Shown here one piece after another: positions 3,018 to 13,903 of a stretch of DNA of 38,343 nt (position 1 is the stretch's first letter; the number at the start of each line of letters is the position of its first letter). Source of the stretch: a virus. The notes beneath the pieces are model-generated. The model saw only the letters and a program-made list of their open reading frames with translations. It was not told where the DNA came from and ran no database searches. The position numbers and the translations under genes were made by a program. The stretch is taken from positions 1 to 38,343 of the IMG/VR virus record IMGVR_UViG_3300035698_020015. The stretch is one strand, 5' to 3'.

Positions 3018-3917
3018 TTATTGTTCAACGATCCCTGAAAGGATCAACAAGTCATTCAGGGGTTCGTCAGTATCTTCCGTAAGATTCTGCTTTTTACCCT
3101 GAGTAGTTTTAGTTGCGTACTCGGCAATTACTTGCTGATCTTGAGCAACTCTTTGACCACGCCCGCTTGCATTCTTGGCTTTTCCAATTCGTACTTTCTT
3201 TTCTGCTTTGGCAGCCTCAGTCAGAAGCTCGCTGGCTTCTTTAACCTGCTCATTGAGCCTATTGTTCTGGGCCGACAACTTAACATTTCTTGCCTCTACA
3301 ATTCTCATCTGACCTTTGATATCTTCACATACTTTCGCAACTTCTTGAAGTTTCGAAGCACTTACGGCTGTAAGGTCATCACTTTCTACGTACTGGGACA
3401 GTAGCTCAGCCATCTTCTCGACGATGACTCTCTGCTCTGCCAGTGTGGGGTCGTCGAGTACGTCACGCTTTGCGTGCTCGTAAATCTCCGACTCTTGAAG
3501 ATTGAGGAACTGGTCAACTTTGTCGACCATGAAGTTCTTCATCTCTTGGAGCTTCTTATCGAACTCTTCATATAGTCCGACTTCGATGTTGTCATTCTTG
3601 CCTTTTTCTTTGCTCAATTCTTGATAAGCTTCTTCGAATCCCTCTTCGAGAGCGGTCTCGAACTCTTCGCGTTGCTCATCTAGACGATTCATCAAAGAGG
3701 CAATAATTTCGTATGCCTGTTGATATCCCTGTTCTGAGATCTGTCCTTCGGTATCCTTTTCTGAAGTCAACTGCTCGTAGGCTTCATCCAATTTAGCTTG
3801 GAATTCGTCCTCAAGACCTTTGACTTGCTCGGCCATCATTTGTTCGACGGCTTCGGAAACCTCAGCAACCTGATCTTCAGGGAGGATCTTTTTTAGCGCT
3901 TCAGTGATCTTATCCAT
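3018..3917 (-). CDS. 22: Prohead core/scaffold protein (gp22-like)
   Basis: 299 residues, rich in Glu, Lys and Gln, with long predicted coiled coil (about residues 20-240) and few hydrophobic stretches. It lies exactly between the prohead protease and the capsid gene, the T4 place of gp22, the core protein on which the prohead shell assembles. Several L-x-E sites (for example LDEAYEQ and LLTEAAKAEKK) fit degradation by gp21 during maturation. The start overlaps the protease stop by one base (TAATG), so translation is probably coupled. Sequence identity to gp22 is not obvious by eye; the call rests on composition, length and position. Confidence 0.85.
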   Translation of the reverse strand: MDKITEALKKILPEDQVAEVSEAVEQMMAEQVKGLEDEFQAKLDEAYEQLTSEKDTEGQISEQGYQQAYEIIASLMNRLDEQREEFETALEEGFEEAYQELSKEKGKNDNIEVGLYEEFDKKLQEMKNFMVDKVDQFLNLQESEIYEHAKRDVLDDPTLAEQRVIVEKMAELLSQYVESDDLTAVSASKLQEVAKVCEDIKGQMRIVEARNVKLSAQNNRLNEQVKEASELLTEAAKAEKKVRIGKAKNASGRGQRVAQDQQVIAEYATKTTQGKKQNLTEDTDEPLNDLLILSGIVEQ

Positions 3918-4624
3918 TACCCTAACCTCGACTTAAATTTCTGTGTTTGAGATTCTACAATGCCGCCCAAACAAGCGATCAATGCCTCTTTTTTGTTAAT
4001 CATATCTATGCCGCTGGCTTCGTTTTTAATACCAGCGTTCTCATTACGATCAACTCTCTCGTTTCGTACCTTGGAAGGTTCTACGTTCTCCTTCTTCGAT
4101 TTCGAAACGACCTTTTCTTGGAACGCCGCAAAGGTACTGGGGTCGGCGACTGCATCAAAGGTGATAAGCTTATAGCTTTCGCCAATAACTAGAATACCGT
4201 CCTCGTTAACCTTTCCGTTCCCCACTCCTCGTGAACTAATTCCTACTTTCACTCCGTCTTCGATAAGAGCCTTAAGGATCTTGCCGTTAGGAGTATTCAA
4301 AATTTCTCCCTCTCCCATTAAGATGTTTCCATCCCACCATAATTTGGTGACAACATGAGAGGCTTCGGAGAAATGAATGATAGAATCCGTTGGATGGTCT
4401 AGTTCGCCGACAAGTCGTCGATCTGTAACCGACTCACCGAGTCGATCAAGATTGTCATTAAGAACATCATACGGATACATTCGTTTGTTTTTGTTAACTG
4501 CTTCAGCTTCTTGGAATTTTCCCCGGAAACTGACGAGACCACGACTGGTCGTAGCCTCGCTCAGTTCGAGTTCCATACCTGAATCGCTGCAACAATCAAC
4601 AAGAAGCATCTGTTTGTTATCCAT
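3917..4624 (-). CDS. 21: Prohead maturation protease (gp21-like serine protease)
   Basis: 235 residues, close to T4 gp21 (212). Herpesvirus-assemblin-type signatures are present: GLVSFRGKFQEAE near the N-terminus, NKNKRMYPYDVL, the catalytic-His segment RLVGELDHP, and the catalytic-Ser segment VGISSRGVG. The family cleaves scaffold and capsid proteins after L/I-x-E inside the prohead. The C-terminal 60 residues are charged and probably act as a removable or targeting tail. AAGGAG stands 8 bases before the ATG. The gene is coupled to the scaffold by a TAATG overlap. Confidence 0.94.
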   Translation of the reverse strand: MDNKQMLLVDCCSDSGMELELSEATTSRGLVSFRGKFQEAEAVNKNKRMYPYDVLNDNLDRLGESVTDRRLVGELDHPTDSIIHFSEASHVVTKLWWDGNILMGEGEILNTPNGKILKALIEDGVKVGISSRGVGNGKVNEDGILVIGESYKLITFDAVADPSTFAAFQEKVVSKSKKENVEPSKVRNERVDRNENAGIKNEASGIDMINKKEALIACLGGIVESQTQKFKSRLG

Positions 4625-4643
4625 TGTTAGCTCCTTAATGATC

Positions 4644-6377
4644 TTACTTGTCTACCACTAGATCGGTTTCTGAGCCATCCTTCATCTTATGACCCTTTCC
4701 ACCTACGCCGCCAGCTTCCTTCGGAACGTATGGGTTCTGAAGGTCGGGCCACGTGTCGCTTGATTTCCATGTGGAGTGGTGAGGACCGATAGCGTCTTTG
4801 TCAACGCCCTTCTCACCCTTCATGGTGTAATCGCCGAATGGCTTCGGAACGTATGGGTTCTTCAGGCTTGGGAAAACTTCCTTACCACCTTCTTGGCCCC
4901 AACTGTTCTTTCGCATCTCTTTAGCGTGCTTTCCGCCCTTGTATTCCATGCTGTCTTGTCCGATGGCTGCGGCGGAATCGCCCATGGCATCGGTGTAACG
5001 GCCTGCTACGGCGGGAACCTTGGCGTTCTTAGCCATTTGCGGATGATCTCCGCTCACGGTTAGATGTGGCTTGTTAGAAACACTCCACTTCTCAGAAGCG
5101 CCTTCTACGTTGGCTTCGACTAATGTTGCAATAAGTCTCGCGGCTTCTTCGGCCACTGCAATATCAGGTTGAACTTTGCCGTTAAGAATGTCAGCGAGTT
5201 CATTAAGATATTCGGCAGCGTCTTGTTTCAGAGCCGAATCGCCTTTTCCATCAGCCTTACTGTAGATAGCTTCAAGAGACTCATAGATGTCCGAGAAAGC
5301 CTTTCTTTCTAGACCGAACTTCTCGTCGATGGCCGCATAGAACTGCTCTGCTACTTGCTGGAAGTGACCGTAAGGATCTACACCCTCTTCGATCTTGCTA
5401 GCACCAGCTAGATGTAGGATTTGAGCAATTTTTTCGGTGTAAGCACCGTGGGCTTTTCGGAGAATTCCTTCTGCCATGAAGGCACAAGTTTGATCATCAT
5501 AATTGCTAACGCCAGCGATCTGTAGAGACTCACCAATCATGCTGGACAATTCGTCCTGAGTGACATAAAGAAGGTTGGGCCATGTCTTGACAACATTTTC
5601 CAAAACTTCTTCAAGACCTTGTTGATCGGAGAAAGCATTTTGTCTCTTAAGATGAGCCATTGCTTTGCAGAATTCCTGATTTTTGACTGTCTCGGCGACA
5701 GAATGACGGGCTTCATGAGCTTTGCTGTTAAGCGAGCGATACCCGGATCGGACAGATCTGTCTGAATTTCTTTCGTTTACAGTTGGTACACGAACGTCGG
5801 TTACGTTACCTTTCTCGTCAGTCTTGACGACTGATTCTGAAAGGGCGGGGCCGAACTTCATGAATTCAACATATTCTAAGACGTGGCGTGCGATAATATA
5901 CTCTTTTTGGAGTCCCAATTTCTTGGCGGCTCTTAGAGTTGCAGCATCGTCTTTGTGCTCATTCGCCACACTACTCCGTGACGGTTTTGTCTCTTTGAAT
6001 TCGCTCCAGCGAACCATGCCCAAATAATCTTCAAATAAGTCCTTTGCTGTGTCGTGATCGTCCTGTAGGACGGCGTCAATCATTTCGGAGAGACGCACAC
6101 GTTGCTTGTCTTTCCTAGAGGATTCGTCGATGACCAATTCTTCAATGTTTGTGAAGTTTACTGCTTCTTTCTTAATTCCAAAGCCTGCGTGAACAAAAGT
6201 GTCATCGAGTGTCTCGAAAACTACTGTTGATTCATTGAAACTATGAAGTGAAAGAATGTTTCTTCCCAAAGCTTTTGCGAGAACTGGTGCAGCTTCGACT
6301 AACTCACGTTCGGCAGCAGTAACGGACTCATTAGTAATCATATCGAAGGCATCTTGCTTTATGAGTTTGCGCTTCAT
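4644..6377 (-). CDS. Probable virion/prohead-core protein in the gp67/gp68 position
   Basis: An open frame extends up to 6413, but GAGGAG 8 bases before the ATG at 6377 makes MKRKLIKQDAF the likely start (577 residues). No enzyme motif is seen. The N-terminal 100 residues are mixed alpha/beta and the middle is strongly helical. The last 120 residues are Gly/Lys-rich and carry a repeated NPYVPK motif (SLKNPYVPKPFG and DLQNPYVPKEAG), like a flexible tail. LVE near the N-terminus would be a possible gp21 cleavage site. It is first in the run 577aa-21-22-23, where T4 has the small core proteins gp67 and gp68, so a role in the core or inside the head is inferred. TATATAAAT about 50 bases upstream of the start may be the promoter. 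Confidence 0.65.
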   Translation of the reverse strand: MKRKLIKQDAFDMITNESVTAAERELVEAAPVLAKALGRNILSLHSFNESTVVFETLDDTFVHAGFGIKKEAVNFTNIEELVIDESSRKDKQRVRLSEMIDAVLQDDHDTAKDLFEDYLGMVRWSEFKETKPSRSSVANEHKDDAATLRAAKKLGLQKEYIIARHVLEYVEFMKFGPALSESVVKTDEKGNVTDVRVPTVNERNSDRSVRSGYRSLNSKAHEARHSVAETVKNQEFCKAMAHLKRQNAFSDQQGLEEVLENVVKTWPNLLYVTQDELSSMIGESLQIAGVSNYDDQTCAFMAEGILRKAHGAYTEKIAQILHLAGASKIEEGVDPYGHFQQVAEQFYAAIDEKFGLERKAFSDIYESLEAIYSKADGKGDSALKQDAAEYLNELADILNGKVQPDIAVAEEAARLIATLVEANVEGASEKWSVSNKPHLTVSGDHPQMAKNAKVPAVAGRYTDAMGDSAAAIGQDSMEYKGGKHAKEMRKNSWGQEGGKEVFPSLKNPYVPKPFGDYTMKGEKGVDKDAIGPHHSTWKSSDTWPDLQNPYVPKEAGGVGGKGHKMKDGSETDLVVDK

Positions 6378-7283: not shown

Positions 7284-7712
7284 TCATTGTCTTATAGCAT
7301 TTCCGCAAATACTCAACGTACCATGTGTGTTATATGTGGTTCCGCTTTGTCTAAAATTGTGCCATCGTCCAAAAACCAAAATTTCTATTGTGCTGTTGAG
7401 ATAAGTAATGGGTTGATAGGGCGTGAACGTGAGACGAATATTGTTGGGCGTTAGTTCTAGCCATTTCTTCCACCAAGGCAATTTGTATGATTCGTCTATT
7501 TCTACCCAACCCCAATCTTTACAATAAAGTCCTGCTATGCCAATGACACTATATTTCATTTTGGACTTTCTTGTAAATTTTGTAACGATATGAGCCCACA
7601 CTGATTTTTGTTTGCCTATTGTCCAAAATGTCCATTTTTTTCTATCTTCAACAGATGTACTAAGTATTATGGTGATCAATATTCCGATACATCCTATGAT
7701 TACTCCAATCAT
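7284..7712 (-). CDS. Unknown protein with N-terminal membrane segment
   Basis: 142 residues. Residues 2-19 (MIGVIIGCIGILITIILS) form one hydrophobic helix, followed by a Trp/Lys-rich soluble part (KKWTFWTIGKQK, LPWWKKWLEL). The start overlaps the stop of the endonuclease gene (ATGA), so the two are translated together. This could be a cargo gene carried with the endonuclease or an older phage gene. No family recognised. Confidence 0.6.
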   Translation of the reverse strand: MIGVIIGCIGILITIILSTSVEDRKKWTFWTIGKQKSVWAHIVTKFTRKSKMKYSVIGIAGLYCKDWGWVEIDESYKLPWWKKWLELTPNNIRLTFTPYQPITYLNSTIEILVFGRWHNFRQSGTTYNTHGTLSICGNAIRQ

Positions 7713-8560
7713 GACAAAATCCTTTCCAGTCGTTCCAAAACAATTTGATAGTTTTCGCAGTCAAACACTTCCGTGGCTGTTTTTCGATTGTTGATTTCTG
7801 TATATATCTGTGTGCATCCTTCACTAGTGGCTCTTTTTATAACAGATGTCTCATCGTCTTTCTTGCATTTCCATTTCTTTACGAGCTTGGCATTGGGGCA
7901 TACGGTTTTGTGTTCTTTCAATCTTCTGCTCGGTTTTTTCGTGAATCCCAACTTGATTCTGTTGAGATTGAATTCTGGAATTGGTTGTATTAAGTAAAAG
8001 AAACCATCAGATTTCATATCCATAAGATACTTTTCTAATCGCTTTGCGTCTTCTTTGCTTATGGAATATTTGGTTCTACCTCCATGATTAGAAAATGTTT
8101 TGACGAACTCGCAATTGTTGTTTTTAGCCCATCTTTTGATCACTCTCCAGTCTGTGTTGTATTCCTTTAAGATATCAAGTATAGGAATGCATTGTGGTGT
8201 GTTATATTCTTGAAAGAACTTTTCCCCATCTTTCAGGCTCATAGCTTTAGTTGGAGGTCCAACAGAGCTTCTTAAAAGACGAAGTTCTACATTGTTTCTC
8301 TCTGTCCACAACCTCACAGTTTTTCTATCAACATTATTCCTTTTGGCAACATCTGGTATGGTAACCATGTCATCTGGAAGTGTGGTTATTTCTTCCCAAT
8401 AACTTGCAAATTTTTCGGAGCAAGCTTTTGAGATAGCTTGTACTGTTTTCCCGTTAGACGCTTTGACCTTTTGTGTTTCTACTTTATATTTCTTGATCCA
8501 CTTTCTGATTGTGGCTGGGTCGCAAGAACATTTTTTTGCTAGATCGAGTATTGTAATCAT
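7709..8560 (-). CDS. T5orf172/MUG113 (GIY-YIG-like) homing endonuclease with three HTH modules
   Basis: 283 residues. The C-terminal part (about 187-275) fits the T5orf172/MUG113 branch of the GIY-YIG fold: GFFYLIQ, then RIKLGFTKKPSRRLKEH, LVKKWKC, and GCTQIYTE ending in TATEVFD. The front has three successive helix-turn-helix units starting at residues 1, about 65 and about 125, each reading like ILDLAKK...DPATIRKWIKK. GGAG lies 9 bases before the ATG. It sits between the portal and the next head gene, as free-standing homing endonucleases do in T4-like phages. The natural target is probably the portal region, which also holds an intein and a related remnant. Confidence 0.8.
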   Translation of the reverse strand: MITILDLAKKCSCDPATIRKWIKKYKVETQKVKASNGKTVQAISKACSEKFASYWEEITTLPDDMVTIPDVAKRNNVDRKTVRLWTERNNVELRLLRSSVGPPTKAMSLKDGEKFFQEYNTPQCIPILDILKEYNTDWRVIKRWAKNNNCEFVKTFSNHGGRTKYSISKEDAKRLEKYLMDMKSDGFFYLIQPIPEFNLNRIKLGFTKKPSRRLKEHKTVCPNAKLVKKWKCKKDDETSVIKRATSEGCTQIYTEINNRKTATEVFDCENYQIVLERLERILS

Positions 8561-8614: not shown

Positions 8615-11209
8615 TCAGTTTTCTTCGCTCCTGTCTTGCTCCTCTTCATCCATTTCCTTGGAGAAGTCCTTGATTTCTAGGTCATACTTGATTGCATCAT
8701 CATCAGAAACGTCTGGAATAGGATTGGCGCTTCCTGCCATTGGAGGTTCGCCTTGAGGTTGTGCTCCCATGGGATCTTGTCCACCCATTGCTGCCATAGG
8801 ATCTTCGGGATCTGCGTCCATGTACTTCCTCATACCCTGTGGACCCATAGCTCCGCCCTGATCACCAGCGGCTCCCATTTCCATTCCGCCACCCGGAGGT
8901 GCTCCTCCGAGCATCGGATTAGCTCCACCGACTTCGGAACCAATCTCAGTTTCATCTGGTCCCGGCAGTCCCACGCCCAACAGAGTCGGGTTCTGTGCAA
9001 TGATCTGTAGTTTCAACTCTTCCAACTTTTGGATTTTGAGACGAGCTAACATTTTTTGAGCTTCTTCTTCTGGATACTTCATCCAACTTGTTAAAATATC
9101 GAAGTCACTTAGCAGTTGAGATCCCTTCAGATTCGCAGCATTGTTCAATCTATTGGTTATGACCTCTGCTCTTGTGAGTTCTCGCCAATCCGAAGGAGGT
9201 GTCATCTTAATTTCCAGATCCTCGTAATCATCTTCTGGATAACCAAGCAATCTCAGGTGTCGATCACAGATTTCCCAGAAAGCATCTTCAACGTGTGACT
9301 GGAGACGTTCGATCATGCGAGCGAACTTGATATCCTGAGCCGACAAAGCAATTCTGGTAGATTGCGTGTCTTCGTTGTTGAAGTAATTCCTCGGAAAATT
9401 CATGGCTGTAAATAATTTGTTGCGGAAGTACACGGTGTCATCAATCTCGCCAAGGTTTTGGGCACCCGGCAATGTCTCTACGCGAGTGTTGGCGTTAGGA
9501 CGGATAGGAATCCAGTAGTCCTCATCGGCTGCTGGTGCGTGCCATCGTTCTTCAACTGATGAAGCTCCCGGTGCTGCTCCCCGAGTATTCGCAACCTTCT
9601 TCTTTTTGAATTGGTCCTTCATCCTCTCGATAAAAGCTTCCGCTTTGTAAGGAGGCATCTGTGCCACATCGATGTAGAACACACGACGTTCTGGTGCTCT
9701 GGTAAGTCGGTAAACAACCATCGCATCTTCCATCAATCTCAACTGATGGGCAGGCCCGCGAGCCGCTTCGATCAAGGAAACGCCATACGGGTAGAATGTC
9801 AGTCGATCATCACCAATCCTGATGTGGATCACTTGTTCTGGGGCAAATCTGATAGCTGTGGCTTGTTGCAGATCTGCTTCTGTGGCTTGCGTAACTTCCA
9901 CTCTGGCAAGGCTTTGATAGTCTGGTCCTTCTTTTGATTGCTGGAATTCTATCAATCGACCTTTGGTGGTTTCGATGCGATACATGCTATCGGGCGGTAA
10001 CGGTGTAAGGCCAATAATTCCAGACTTGGGATTCTCTATGTCAATGACCACTTCATACAAGAAGTCACCATTGATAAACAATCTCTTAGTCATATCCCAT
10101 GTCTTCTTCTGATCGAAGTTGAGCATTTGGCGATGAAAGATCAACCACTCCAACTCTTTGACGATCTCATCATTAGCACATGAGATCTTCAAAACATGCC
10201 CATCGTCATCTCGTTGACAATTGTGAGCGACTCCCCAATCAGTACAGAAGTTGTGATGTTTCTCAACTGACAGATCGTACACATCGATTTCTTGGAAAGG
10301 ATGAATACCAATAACTTTTCGGCAATCTTCTTTTTTACCCAACCACTTCATTTCTTTGTTGGAGAATCCGGCTCGCTCAATGCGATCCTTTACAGTTCGG
10401 AAGTCATTGCCAGTAAGTTTTTGGATTTGTCGTACAGTGAGACCTTCTGCTATCATGCGACAGTATTGGTTCACAAGCCTCGTACTTTCTGGCACTTTGC
10501 CTGTTGTCCATTCATCAATAAACTGTCTCTCATGAACCCAACCCTTATCGTGCGTCCAAATTCGTGCAAACTGATTGGTGTTCAATTCTGTAAGATCATG
10601 ACGAGCAGAGAGACGGTAGAATGGCATCAGTTCTGAGCCATGTTCTAGCTCTCCAGCTTCAATCCAAGACCCTGCTTTGGTAAGAATGCGGTGATCTGGA
10701 GTACAAACGAATTGACTTCCATCATCAAGGCTCACTTGGACTGTTTTGGCTTTTTTTGTTTTGCGTGGATTGAATGCCCATCCGAGCGTGTAATCTCTCT
10801 GGTCAAAATCATAGCAGTAGACCAAGAATCGCTCTGTTTCATTTTCGGCGAGTTCTTTGATGGTCTTGTAACCATGCGGTGTTGCTACTTTTGTAGATCC
10901 CGCGAAGCAAGCCTCGTCTGAAAAGACAGTCATTGCCATTTCAATCTCAGGCATGTTTCTCAGACGTTCATACTCTTTATATCTGTGTATTCGATTTGTG
11001 ACGGTTGAGAGGTCCACAAAATCGTTGGTGTCTCTTAGGCGAACCGAACCTTTGCCGCCGCCCCAAGAGCCGTCTTGACCAGCACGGATGTCTGGAATGG
11101 CGTCAGGTTGTGAAATACCTGCGCCAATAGGCTCTTTCCGTGTCCTCTTTGTGAGAGGATCATCGGTGAAAGCGTAGCTGAATACTTTGAAAAAATCCCA
11201 CCAAGCCAT
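8615..11209 (-). CDS. 20: Portal protein (gp20-like) with in-frame intein
   Basis: 864 residues encoded; 634 remain if the intein (residues 101-330) is removed, against 524 for T4 gp20. The gp20-type portal shows the segment RNMPEIEMAMTVFSDEA|CQRDDDG, then KTWDMTKRLFINGDFLYEVV, LTPLPPDSMYRIE, a conserved body with YPYGVSLIEAARGPAHQLRL, and NEDTQSTRIALSAQDIKFARMI. The C-terminal 140 residues are Gly/Met/Pro-rich and then acidic. The portal forms the dodecameric vertex for DNA packaging and prohead initiation. GGAGG precedes the ATG, which overlaps the stop of the small upstream frame (TAATG), so it may be translated by coupling. The mature function requires intein splicing. Confidence 0.95.
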   Translation of the reverse strand: MAWWDFFKVFSYAFTDDPLTKRTRKEPIGAGISQPDAIPDIRAGQDGSWGGGKGSVRLRDTNDFVDLSTVTNRIHRYKEYERLRNMPEIEMAMTVFSDEACFAGSTKVATPHGYKTIKELAENETERFLVYCYDFDQRDYTLGWAFNPRKTKKAKTVQVSLDDGSQFVCTPDHRILTKAGSWIEAGELEHGSELMPFYRLSARHDLTELNTNQFARIWTHDKGWVHERQFIDEWTTGKVPESTRLVNQYCRMIAEGLTVRQIQKLTGNDFRTVKDRIERAGFSNKEMKWLGKKEDCRKVIGIHPFQEIDVYDLSVEKHHNFCTDWGVAHNCQRDDDGHVLKISCANDEIVKELEWLIFHRQMLNFDQKKTWDMTKRLFINGDFLYEVVIDIENPKSGIIGLTPLPPDSMYRIETTKGRLIEFQQSKEGPDYQSLARVEVTQATEADLQQATAIRFAPEQVIHIRIGDDRLTFYPYGVSLIEAARGPAHQLRLMEDAMVVYRLTRAPERRVFYIDVAQMPPYKAEAFIERMKDQFKKKKVANTRGAAPGASSVEERWHAPAADEDYWIPIRPNANTRVETLPGAQNLGEIDDTVYFRNKLFTAMNFPRNYFNNEDTQSTRIALSAQDIKFARMIERLQSHVEDAFWEICDRHLRLLGYPEDDYEDLEIKMTPPSDWRELTRAEVITNRLNNAANLKGSQLLSDFDILTSWMKYPEEEAQKMLARLKIQKLEELKLQIIAQNPTLLGVGLPGPDETEIGSEVGGANPMLGGAPPGGGMEMGAAGDQGGAMGPQGMRKYMDADPEDPMAAMGGQDPMGAQPQGEPPMAGSANPIPDVSDDDAIKYDLEIKDFSKEMDEEEQDRSEEN
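10220..10909 (-). mobile_element. Intein inside the portal protein
   Basis: It spans portal residues 101-330 (230 aa). Block A is CFAGSTKVATPHGYKTI, block B is QFVCTPDHRILT (the T-x-x-H motif), block F is DVYDLSVEKHHNFCT and block G is GVAHN followed by the +1 Cys (C331). All splice-junction residues are present, so splicing is expected. It interrupts the DEA-C motif of the portal. The region between the splicing halves (about residues 205-290) has no LAGLIDADG or HNH motif but holds a resolvase-like HTH (LTVRQIQKLTGNDFRTVKDR). It may be a degenerate homing domain, or an element relying on another nuclease. Confidence 0.93.
11179..11209 (-). repeat. 31-base direct duplication of the portal start, copy 1
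   Basis: The first 31 bases of the portal gene, encoding MAWWDFFKVF, occur again without change at 11340-11370. The sequence differs immediately after, apart from a similar GAATA just before the ATG in both copies. Confidence 0.95.
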
Positions 11210-11370
11210 TATTCGCCTCCTAATTTGGCGAGATCCACAAATTCGGTCTCTCTTAAACCATTTTGTTTACACCAGATTTCTGTGCATCCACCGAATATCA
11301 TTGCTTTATCTTCAGCGGTACAACCTTTGATCGAATACATGAATACTTTGAAAAAATCCCACCAAGCCAT
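11209..11370 (-). CDS. 53-residue chimera: portal N-terminus joined to an endonuclease-like C-terminal remnant
   Basis: It is shorter than most annotation cut-offs. The first ten residues (MAWWDFFKVF) equal those of the portal. The rest includes GGCTEIWCKQNGLRETEFVD, which matches the end of the T5orf172-type endonuclease at 7709-8560 (GCTQIYTEINN...TEVFD). A strong site (GAGGAG) precedes the ATG, and the stop overlaps the portal ATG (TAATG), so the frame is probably translated and feeds ribosomes to the portal. I read it as the footprint of a homing endonuclease that landed at the portal start and was mostly deleted. Whether the peptide has a use is unknown. Confidence 0.75.
   Translation of the reverse strand: MAWWDFFKVFMYSIKGCTAEDKAMIFGGCTEIWCKQNGLRETEFVDLAKLGGE
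11340..11370 (-). repeat. 31-base direct duplication of the portal start, copy 2
   Basis: This is the second identical copy, forming the 5' end of the 53-codon frame upstream of the portal. The two copies flank the endonuclease-like remnant, the pattern expected after insertion repaired across the portal start. Confidence 0.95.
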
Positions 11371-11399
11371 ATTCTCTCCTCTGGGTGCCTTGTTACCCT

Positions 11400-11428
11400 A
11401 AACTCATGTTACCTTGCTGTAGTTATTA
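11400..11428 (-). promoter_or_regulatory. Leader element shared by portal and terminase genes (portal copy)
   Basis: On the minus strand TAATAACTAC, 5 bases, GGTAAC, then TGAGTT; the same order occurs before the terminase at 15749-15776 with a 4-base spacer. The TAATAACTA part resembles a T4-type late promoter box (TATAAATA). It lies about 30-58 bases before the ATG at 11370. Confidence 0.55.
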
Positions 11429-11475
11429 GAACAGGAAGGCATTTTGTTGGGGCAACTTACTTTAATTACAGTGTC

Positions 11476-11847
11476 ATGAAACAAATCCTATTCATAATGA
11501 CTCATCCTGATTCCGACTGGGAAGACCTTGTTGAGGTTCTGGAGGGACATCCGAGTATCCAATGCTTCCAGATTGATCGCGGGTACCATCACCCTGATGA
11601 CCTTGAGATCTTGACAGATCACATACACAAGAAAGACAATTCCGCCGCTGTTTGGGCGACTGTCATCTTGGACAACAAGGACTTTACCTGTCGAGCTTTG
11701 GTGAATTGCTGTAAGTTCATTTATTGGTCAAAAGATCCCACAGAATACAGATTGGATGGTATGAGACAATGGCACAAGAGAACGGGTGGACTATGGAATC
11801 CGTCACTTAGCGAAAGGGATGCGATGTTTAGTTCCATTTTTGGATGA
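11476..11847 (+). CDS. Short sulfotransferase-like protein (tentative)
   Basis: The frame is open from 11263, but that upstream part covers the remnant and leader on the other strand, so MKQILFIMTHPDSDWE at 11476 is taken (123 residues). The N-terminus and the segment CKFIYWSKDPTEYRLDGMRQ recall the 5' and 3' phosphosulfate-binding segments of sulfotransferases, but the protein is less than half the normal length, so activity is doubtful. There is no ribosome binding site; a TTTAAT box 9 bases before the ATG suggests a leaderless transcript. Its 3' end overlaps the convergent phosphoesterase gene by 45 bases. Confidence 0.6.
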   Translation: MKQILFIMTHPDSDWEDLVEVLEGHPSIQCFQIDRGYHHPDDLEILTDHIHKKDNSAAVWATVILDNKDFTCRALVNCCKFIYWSKDPTEYRLDGMRQWHKRTGGLWNPSLSERDAMFSSIFG

Positions 11848-12354
11848 GAAGACGGTGTAATTACAGATGAACTCCCGCCCTACCCACTCATCCAATCCTT
11901 TGTGTTTCCAACCTTTTCCTTTTTTGACATAAGCAATAGTTGCGTGTGGTTGGTATTTATCATAAGTGTTGGTATACTCCACGCTATCTCTTAGTTTTTT
12001 GTTTAGACGACACAGATCTTTGCTTTCTACACCAATGACCACTACATCAAACTTTTGAGGATTTGTGAAAACCTTAATTTTGCCAAGTTTCACATGGATT
12101 GATTTTTCATTTTCGAGTAGTTTTTTGACTTCTTCGGAAGATTCTGAGTGAAGACCATAGAGCATTGTGACATGCATTTCATCTTCTCTGCCGAATGATG
12201 GATCTTGTTGGCTTACGAAGATATCGTCATCGCTAACTTTTTTGCGTCCCCAACTTATGATGTTGTCAGCGAGAGAATTGGGAAGATTTACATGAATTGA
12301 AGAGTATTCATATTGCGTGTTTTTCATCTCCAGCAACCAATTTCTGAATTTCAT
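11803..12354 (-). CDS. 2H phosphoesterase (LigT/Acb1-like), possible anti-CBASS protein
   Basis: 183 residues from ATG at 12354, where AGAGGA lies 6 bases upstream; the longer open frame (to 12474) overlaps the previous gene and is not used. Two H-x-T motifs define the 2H fold: HVTMLYG and, about 80 residues on, HATIAYV. The family opens or cleaves 2'-5' and cyclic phosphodiester bonds. T4 gene 57B (Acb1) is a 2H enzyme that destroys CBASS cyclic nucleotides, and this protein is of comparable size. The N-terminus MKFRNWLLEMK resembles a capsid-targeting sequence and has an L-x-E cleavage site, so packaging into the head is possible. Fold call firm, role inferred. Confidence 0.82.
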   Translation of the reverse strand: MKFRNWLLEMKNTQYEYSSIHVNLPNSLADNIISWGRKKVSDDDIFVSQQDPSFGREDEMHVTMLYGLHSESSEEVKKLLENEKSIHVKLGKIKVFTNPQKFDVVVIGVESKDLCRLNKKLRDSVEYTNTYDKYQPHATIAYVKKGKGWKHKGLDEWVGREFICNYTVFSSKNGTKHRIPFAK

Positions 12355-12382
12355 TAAATCCTCTAAGTTTCGTTTGCAATAT

Positions 12383-12763
12383 TTAGTCTCCCAGCAATTG
12401 ATCTGGAATAGATTGATCTGGAATAGATTGGGCCTGTTTTTCCAAATCCTGAAGTTTCTTTTTTTCTCCCTCAATCATGGCATCCAGTTGCGAGAGTGAT
12501 TTTTGATGTGTTTCCACGGTCATTGGGGAAGCTGCCAATGCAGAAGTTCCAGCTTGAATGTTGCCCCACCAGCTTTCGGACTGGCTTTTGATCATACTCT
12601 TCTTTTTAGCCAGTGAATCCTGCGCAACATCGATCTTTTCGAGTGCTTGCTTCATGTGAGACCGTGCTTCTGTGACAGATCTGTTATTCGGCATGGAATT
12701 CAATGCCACACTCAGTGCTTGTCCGAGAAGATTCTTTACTCGATCTAGTTCTTTGTGTTTCAT
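12383..12763 (-). CDS. Coiled-coil protein of unknown function
   Basis: 126 residues, helical and Lys/Gln-rich, with two coiled-coil stretches (about 35-60 and 85-115) around a central WWGN. The C-terminus has a fresh 15-base tandem duplication giving SIPDQSIPDQ. The start overlaps the preceding endonuclease stop (ATGA), with GAGGCG upstream. A small-terminase role could be imagined from size and closeness to the terminase, but no family likeness is visible, so it is left unnamed. Confidence 0.72.
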   Translation of the reverse strand: MKHKELDRVKNLLGQALSVALNSMPNNRSVTEARSHMKQALEKIDVAQDSLAKKKSMIKSQSESWWGNIQAGTSALAASPMTVETHQKSLSQLDAMIEGEKKKLQDLEKQAQSIPDQSIPDQLLGD

Positions 12764-13851
12764 AATATCGCCTCTTCAAAATATTTCATACCTTTGTTGC
12801 TTTTATCTATGCCTTTAGCAATTTGTCCAAGCTCAGCATATTTGGGAAATCTCCCAAGTGTGTTTGTAAGGTCTTTGAGTTCAGCAATTATGTTTTCTTC
12901 TTTTCCCCAATAGCCATATGGTCGTTTAGTTCGCTCGCCTGTTACTATTTTTTGGAAATATCCATAACCACTATGTGTTTTGATAGAGCTTGCCAAATCA
13001 CTGTGATTACTTTCTTGAAGTTCTCTATCGTTAGGAAAATGACCCGAATTTTTGGTTATCAACTTAAGTTCGTTTATGATTCTATCTTCGGAATATTCTT
13101 TGGTTTTGGACTGATAACCAAGTAAGTTTGCAAATTTCCTAAAACCTCCAAACTTTTGTATTGCAGAAATCAAATCACTTCTGTGTTTTGCTCGCAATTG
13201 ATGGGCTGTGGGAAAATCACCGATTTTTTTTGCGATTGTTTTGATTTCCTTTAATACAGTAGTTTCATTCCAATAGTCTAGTTTTCTTCTGTTGAACACA
13301 GGGTAATCTTGCTGTTGATCTCTGGAATGAATATCAAATTTCTGTAGTCTATCTTTGAACAAACTTTGCAACTCGTTGGAATCAAGTCTGAAATCTCGTC
13401 CCTCAAAAGACAAAAGTTGTAATTCGAGTTTCTCATAAATCTTTTCTTTCTTTTTTCTTCTTTCGCAATAGTTATTGTAGAAATTACCTGTTGCAGATAT
13501 TCCCCATATTTCGACATAAACATCTTTGATTTTGAAGTCATATCGACATTTGCTTTCAGAGCAAATCTGGCTATCAATGTCATGAGGGATGTTATTCAAG
13601 AAAAGATATTCATCAAAGAGGTATTCGTAATAGCTGGACAGGATGTGTCCATCAGAAGCTTTGTGATATTTTGATATTTCTAGATCAGCTTGACTCACAA
13701 CATTTCGGTATCCTCCAAGAGATTTGATGCCGAGTCGAAATGATCTTCCGTACTCTTTTCTCATTTGGCAATATTTTGGCACTTTGCCATTTTTAGCTAT
13801 TTTTTGGAGGTGAGTTGTGGCTACTTCGATGTCATTCCATATGTTGCTCAT
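12760..13851 (-). CDS. Homing endonuclease with HNH-associated repeats and PD-(D/E)XK/Vsr-like nuclease core
   Basis: 363 residues from ATG at 13851. The frame is open to 13884, but ACTATGTAATAGT directly before 13851 matches the no-RBS start pattern seen at other genes. Residues 70-140 form a nuclease core: SSYYEYLFDEYLFLNN, then YDFKI (D105) and VEIWG (E114). Four copies of the homing-endonuclease-associated repeat occur (one before and three after the core), each with a G-x-[FV]-P core and an Arg/His-rich helix, for example GDFPTAHQLRAKHRSDL. It lies directly after the terminase on the same strand, a classic intergenic homing site. Confidence 0.78.
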   Translation of the reverse strand: MSNIWNDIEVATTHLQKIAKNGKVPKYCQMRKEYGRSFRLGIKSLGGYRNVVSQADLEISKYHKASDGHILSSYYEYLFDEYLFLNNIPHDIDSQICSESKCRYDFKIKDVYVEIWGISATGNFYNNYCERRKKKEKIYEKLELQLLSFEGRDFRLDSNELQSLFKDRLQKFDIHSRDQQQDYPVFNRRKLDYWNETTVLKEIKTIAKKIGDFPTAHQLRAKHRSDLISAIQKFGGFRKFANLLGYQSKTKEYSEDRIINELKLITKNSGHFPNDRELQESNHSDLASSIKTHSGYGYFQKIVTGERTKRPYGYWGKEENIIAELKDLTNTLGRFPKYAELGQIAKGIDKSNKGMKYFEEAIL

Positions 13852-13903
13852 ACTATTACATAGTAAGTTGCCGACCAAATTCATAAAATATTTTTAACCA
13901 ACA

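Follow-up and report, generated by a model that had tools for sequence, protein, structure and literature searches.

Why does the portal gene of this phage begin twice? The window, by which we mean the whole stretch of viral DNA that was analysed (38,343 nucleotides), carries on its minus strand a gene for a T4-like portal protein (gp20) at 8615-11209 (Portal_T4, 4.1e-73), which is interrupted by an intein from Cys103 onward (Intein_splicing, 2.2e-11). The intein (approximately 10217-10903) starts with Cys103 and ends with HN/C, contains an HTH-like stretch but no obvious endonuclease and occupies the same place in all relatives that could be read through the region. Directly 5' of the portal gene lies a 53-codon ORF (11209-11370, minus strand) that starts with ATG and whose TAA stop codon overlaps the portal ATG by one base, as TAATG. 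Nucleotides 1-31 of this ORF are identical to nucleotides 1-31 of the portal gene, and the two sequences diverge from nucleotide 32. The locus therefore holds two copies of the portal start on the minus strand, copy 1 at 11340-11370 and copy 2 at 11179-11209, the latter being the first 31 nucleotides of the intact portal gene; they agree at 31 of 31 positions. Copy 1 is fused in frame to a 130-nucleotide insert (11210-11339, minus strand) that encodes a 43-residue tail, MYSIKGC...LAKLGGE, and the spacing of the two copies, 161 bp, is the sum of the 31-bp repeat and the 130-bp insert. An exact repeat of 31 bp within 38 kb is not the work of chance. An earlier note on this DNA had described the duplicated start, the 53-codon frame and the coupling overlap, and direct reading of the sequence bears out all three.

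Which of the two starts is the original one? The 100 bases 5' of copy 1 (11371-11470, minus strand) resemble the leader that stands directly before the portal gene in relatives, as blastn shows for L005, L017, L014 and others (E as low as 3e-8). The resemblance includes the AGAGGAGA ribosome site; the AGAGGAG ribosome-binding site of copy 1 (11376-11382, minus strand) matches the portal leaders of L014 (CCCAAAGGAGAG) and L029 (CCCAGAGGAGA). The AGGAGG ribosome-binding site of copy 2 (11216-11221, minus strand), identified by direct reading, falls within the insert. Because the native leader precedes copy 1 and the ribosome site of copy 2 belongs to the insert, the insert entered the portal gene after approximately nucleotide 31, and it is the present portal start that was added. 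Our comparison set comprised 77 distinct related portals, 75 of them with a visible start. All 75 lack a second start and any counterpart of the 53-codon ORF, and the insert, flanked in the window by the duplicated 31-nucleotide segment of its host gene, is absent from them as well.

The perfect identity of the two copies says little about the age of the duplication, given that the site is conserved and that L021 and L038 share the same 31 nucleotides with the portal start of the window. Portal codons 2-10 are also highly conserved synonymously, with 62% identical codons across relatives against 43% at the median, which places them fifth among 826 windows of the gene. A recent origin, which could have been read from the 31/31 identity, was rejected on these grounds. 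Another phage may have been the source of copy 2.

Is the insert itself coding? Its codon log-likelihood in the ORF frame is +5.9, close to the in-frame median of the genes in the window (+5.0), and the two other frames score -17 and -18, close to the median for out-of-frame gene pieces of the window (-16). An open frame is found in 2.9% of shuffled inserts, none of which matches the codon score of the real one. The insert is a genuine coding sequence in the ORF frame. Since codon usage is gene-like in this frame only, the insert is either the terminal part of a genuine gene or a genuine short gene in its own right. A degenerate intron was considered as an alternative content of the insert and rejected: Rfam gives no match, and the RNA structure is not unusual (z -0.42). 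The group I intron core (RF00028) has no match at the site in the window, even at E 10.

Whatever its source, the ORF could now serve as a functional small leader gene that sets the expression of the portal through translational coupling. Two good-looking ribosome sites, the TAATG overlap, the intact frame and the gene-like codon usage are what such a gene would show; however, no conserved homologue of the ORF was found, and we consider this explanation rather unlikely. A more prosaic explanation is that a chimeric join in a metagenome contig produced the arrangement. The structure comes from a single contig, and a second instance was not found, but the position of the junctions makes biological sense, the reading frame is preserved, copy 2 has a new ribosome site and the codon usage of the insert is that of the phage. 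We consider an assembly artefact highly improbable.

The site of the insertion is one at which relatives are interrupted as well. A group I intron is located after portal nucleotide 34 in L016 (E 8.6e-21) and after nucleotide 15 in L067, and L128 contains two, after nucleotide 13 and just before PDAIPDIR. The RF00028 core was found in all three, with intron boundaries taken from reading frames rather than from transcripts. Rfam detected no other group I introns in 29 further portal loci (approximately 291 kb). The junction in the window, at nucleotide 31, lies no more than 3 nucleotides from the intron site of L016. This coincidence between an insertion junction and the group I intron site of a relative is new here, and it argues for a scar of homing or break repair. 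A free-standing HNH endonuclease gene is positioned on the opposite strand just upstream of the interrupted start in both L016 and L128 (phrog_374, E 1.6e-37 and 4.2e-39, respectively). The first portal codons are a hot spot for introns and homing. In L128, the two introns (4389-4952) are ORF-less and both fall within the first approximately 30 codons of the portal gene, and the opposite-strand HNH gene upstream of them spans 3587-4444.

What mobile genes surround the portal gene in the window? Just 3' of it lies a T5orf172/MUG113-like gene with N-terminal HTH repeats (7709-8560, minus strand). Its product scores 18.9 against T5orf172 (cut-off 20) and 20.9 against MUG113 (cut-off 22.3); since both values fall slightly short of the curated Pfam cut-offs, the T5orf172 label is provisional. 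The insertion is optional: many relatives have a small Cys-rich gene after the portal gene, and the T5orf172-like gene lies between the two. L016 and L024/L039 carry orthologues with 57% identity at this position, and all that remains of the gene in L042 (1138-1320) is a stretch for the C-terminal 58 residues, which follows the portal stop codon directly; such a gene was not found beside the portal in the remaining relatives. Endonuclease genes of this kind do decay to C-terminal tails beside the portal, as L042 shows, which supports the proposal of the earlier note in part. Three portals with a visible start have the T5orf172 gene beside them, and two of these (the window and L016) are interrupted at nucleotides 31-34 versus none of the 64 without T5orf172, a count that concerns nucleotides 31-34 only, L067 and L128 being interrupted elsewhere. 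L024 carries the T5orf172 gene, and its start is uninterrupted but different (MAWWDYFKTF). With three cases, noticed after the fact, the association is suggestive. On the other side of the portal, between it and the terminase gene, the window has a gene with three homing-endonuclease-associated repeats (12760-13884, minus strand; HNH_repeat, 2.8e-12), so that this gene and the T5orf172 gene bracket the portal.

Does the 43-residue tail derive from a T5orf172 endonuclease? The earlier note took the ORF for the remnant of such an enzyme, which would have inserted carrying its own portal start, regenerated the portal gene and later been deleted except for its tail. By eye, the tail resembles the T5orf172 C-terminus (GCT-x-I-[WY] ... 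TE-x-x-D), but the likeness is weak. Aligned with the C-terminus of the 7709-8560 product, the tail shows the motif and obtains a BLOSUM62 score of 34, which 180 of 5000 shuffles (3.6%) reach, and it is only the second-best frame, outscored by an unrelated one in the window. Against a C-terminal family profile built from four relatives, it scores 3.9 bits, reached by 175 of 20,000 shuffles (approximately 1%). No further T5orf172 relatives for a deeper profile were found beyond L016, L024/L039 and L042, distant phage matches being too weak. The N-terminal GIY-YIG-like core and the DNA-binding domain are absent from the 53-codon ORF.

Database searches with the tail were uniformly negative. It has no family match in Pfam, PHROGs, NCBIfam or PDB sequences, no relatives by tblastn in phages, no match to its peptide patterns in viral and genome contigs and no counterpart in whole related contigs of up to 459 kb; the GCTEIWC DNA pattern gave five matches, but never within a similar ORF. 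No full-length endonuclease joined to MAWWDFFKVF, as the proposed insertion would predict, was found among relatives, viral and genome collections included. The DNA of the insert shows no similarity above chance to the neighbouring T5orf172 gene, which also makes a tandem duplication of the portal and the present T5orf172 gene, followed by deletion, unlikely. The assignment of the tail to T5orf172 is only suggestive. Insertion and later loss of such an endonuclease can also call on the tail-only remnant of the family in L042 and on fungal mitochondrial mobile ORFs, which insert with a duplicated segment of the host gene (PMC3630166), yet with the evidence from the tail standing as it does, we regard this course of events as unlikely.

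The portal protein itself offers a competing match. The LRETEFVDLA segment of the tail resembles LRDTNDFVDLS of the portal N-terminus, and the corresponding DNA (TAAGAGAGAC and CGAATTTGTGGATCTC, separated by a gap) aligns with portal nucleotides 173-201 in the same frame and order. The score of this DNA match was reached by 2 of 500 shuffles when the first 400 nucleotides of the portal gene were considered. The insert could accordingly be a decayed tandem copy of the portal N-terminus with an internal deletion, its LRETEFVDLA being derived from LRDTNDFVDLS. However, 7 of 500 shuffles do as well over the whole portal gene, as do 316 of 5000 for the protein score and 464 of 20,000 for the portal profile score, and the middle 28 residues of the tail match nothing in the portal; a decayed portal copy is very unlikely. 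The portal match appears about as good as the T5orf172 match at the DNA level and weaker at the protein level. The proposal of the earlier note hence divides in two. A foreign coding piece did enter the portal start, with duplication of that start and at a hot spot of homing and introns, but a T5orf172 origin of the 43 residues is no more than possible, given the lack of matches in Pfam, PHROGs, NCBIfam and PDB sequences, the borderline shuffles and the portal's own LRDTNDFVDL, which matches about as well.

How, then, did the second start arise? The best reading, which we hold to be somewhat more probable than its negation, is that homing or break repair at the hot spot in the first portal codons left this scar. 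We infer break repair as the simplest route. A double-strand break would have occurred at approximately portal nucleotides 31-34. The donor would have been a second phage, with a gene on the portal strand that runs up to the portal start and ends there via TAATG. The right end of the break would have been repaired by portal homology, whereby the donor's portal start, its ribosome site and the end of the foreign gene were copied in, and the left end, consisting of the native leader and 31 nucleotides, would have been joined without homology. What results would be an in-frame fusion of the native start with the final 43 codons of the foreign gene, followed by a complete portal gene, which would have a new ribosome site and be read by coupled translation. 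The foreign gene was possibly itself a homing endonuclease, an identification that we make only tentatively. Several observations count against a scar of homing or break repair: no donor with a full gene upstream of the portal was found in viral or genome collections, the insert has no intron signature, L024 combines the T5orf172 gene with an uninterrupted start, and codon 11 of copy 2 is AGC instead of the usual ACN, so that the site may have been altered by substitution as well. Insertion of an endonuclease and break repair yield the same structure.

The setting resembles known systems in part. In phage ICP1, a T5orf172 gene lies beside the N-terminal exon of the intron-containing terminase gene, in a case of collaborative homing of ORF-less group I introns, and T5orf172 nucleases are found beside essential phage genes, which fits the setting of the window (PMC10448857); collaborative homing with adjacent free-standing endonucleases has been reviewed (PMC2988022). 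As in ICP1, an essential packaging gene is interrupted near its 5' end, endonuclease genes of the T5orf172 and HNH families flank it, and the interruptions vary between relatives. Unlike ICP1, the window has no intron but a duplicated start and a leftover coding fragment. In the mitochondria of the fungi Allomyces and Glomus, mobile endonuclease ORFs occur with duplicated host-gene ends (PMC3630166). These likewise insert in phase into an essential gene that the duplicated segment restores, but in those cases an intact endonuclease accompanies a duplicated 3' end, whereas in the window the 5' end is duplicated and only 43 codons without a family match, with no endonuclease ORF, remain in the insert. 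The tail shares with T5orf172/MUG113 C-termini the GCT-x-[IL]-[YWF] motif and the spacing to TE-x-x-D, but its match is not significant and the 53 residues lack a catalytic core. The locus might be the tail remnant of a 5' gene-restoring homing element, although we think this improbable; such an element would enter at the start of a gene, use the host's first codons and leader and carry a fresh start that restores the gene downstream.

The locus marks the first codons of a packaging gene as a place where group I introns and homing nucleases have entered more than once in a large group of uncultured T4-like phages, and it illustrates one route by which a phage survives a break or an insertion at its portal start, namely regeneration of the gene's start. 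Most free-standing T5orf172 nucleases are not known to have an established target, and a test of the pairing between the T5orf172 gene and this site, which is directly possible, would therefore be useful.

Two further features of the window deserve mention. The minus-strand ORF at 11803-12474 encodes a protein resembling 2'-5' RNA ligase and Acb1 (2_5_RNA_ligase2, 4e-9; Acb1, 3.7e-8), a candidate anti-CBASS enzyme, and ORFs resembling it are located upstream of the portal in many relatives. At 1405-1467 lies a long, near-perfect hairpin (GTTTCATATGGAGCAG...CTGCTCCATATGAAAC), whose mir-29 score arises by chance and which is perhaps a terminator.
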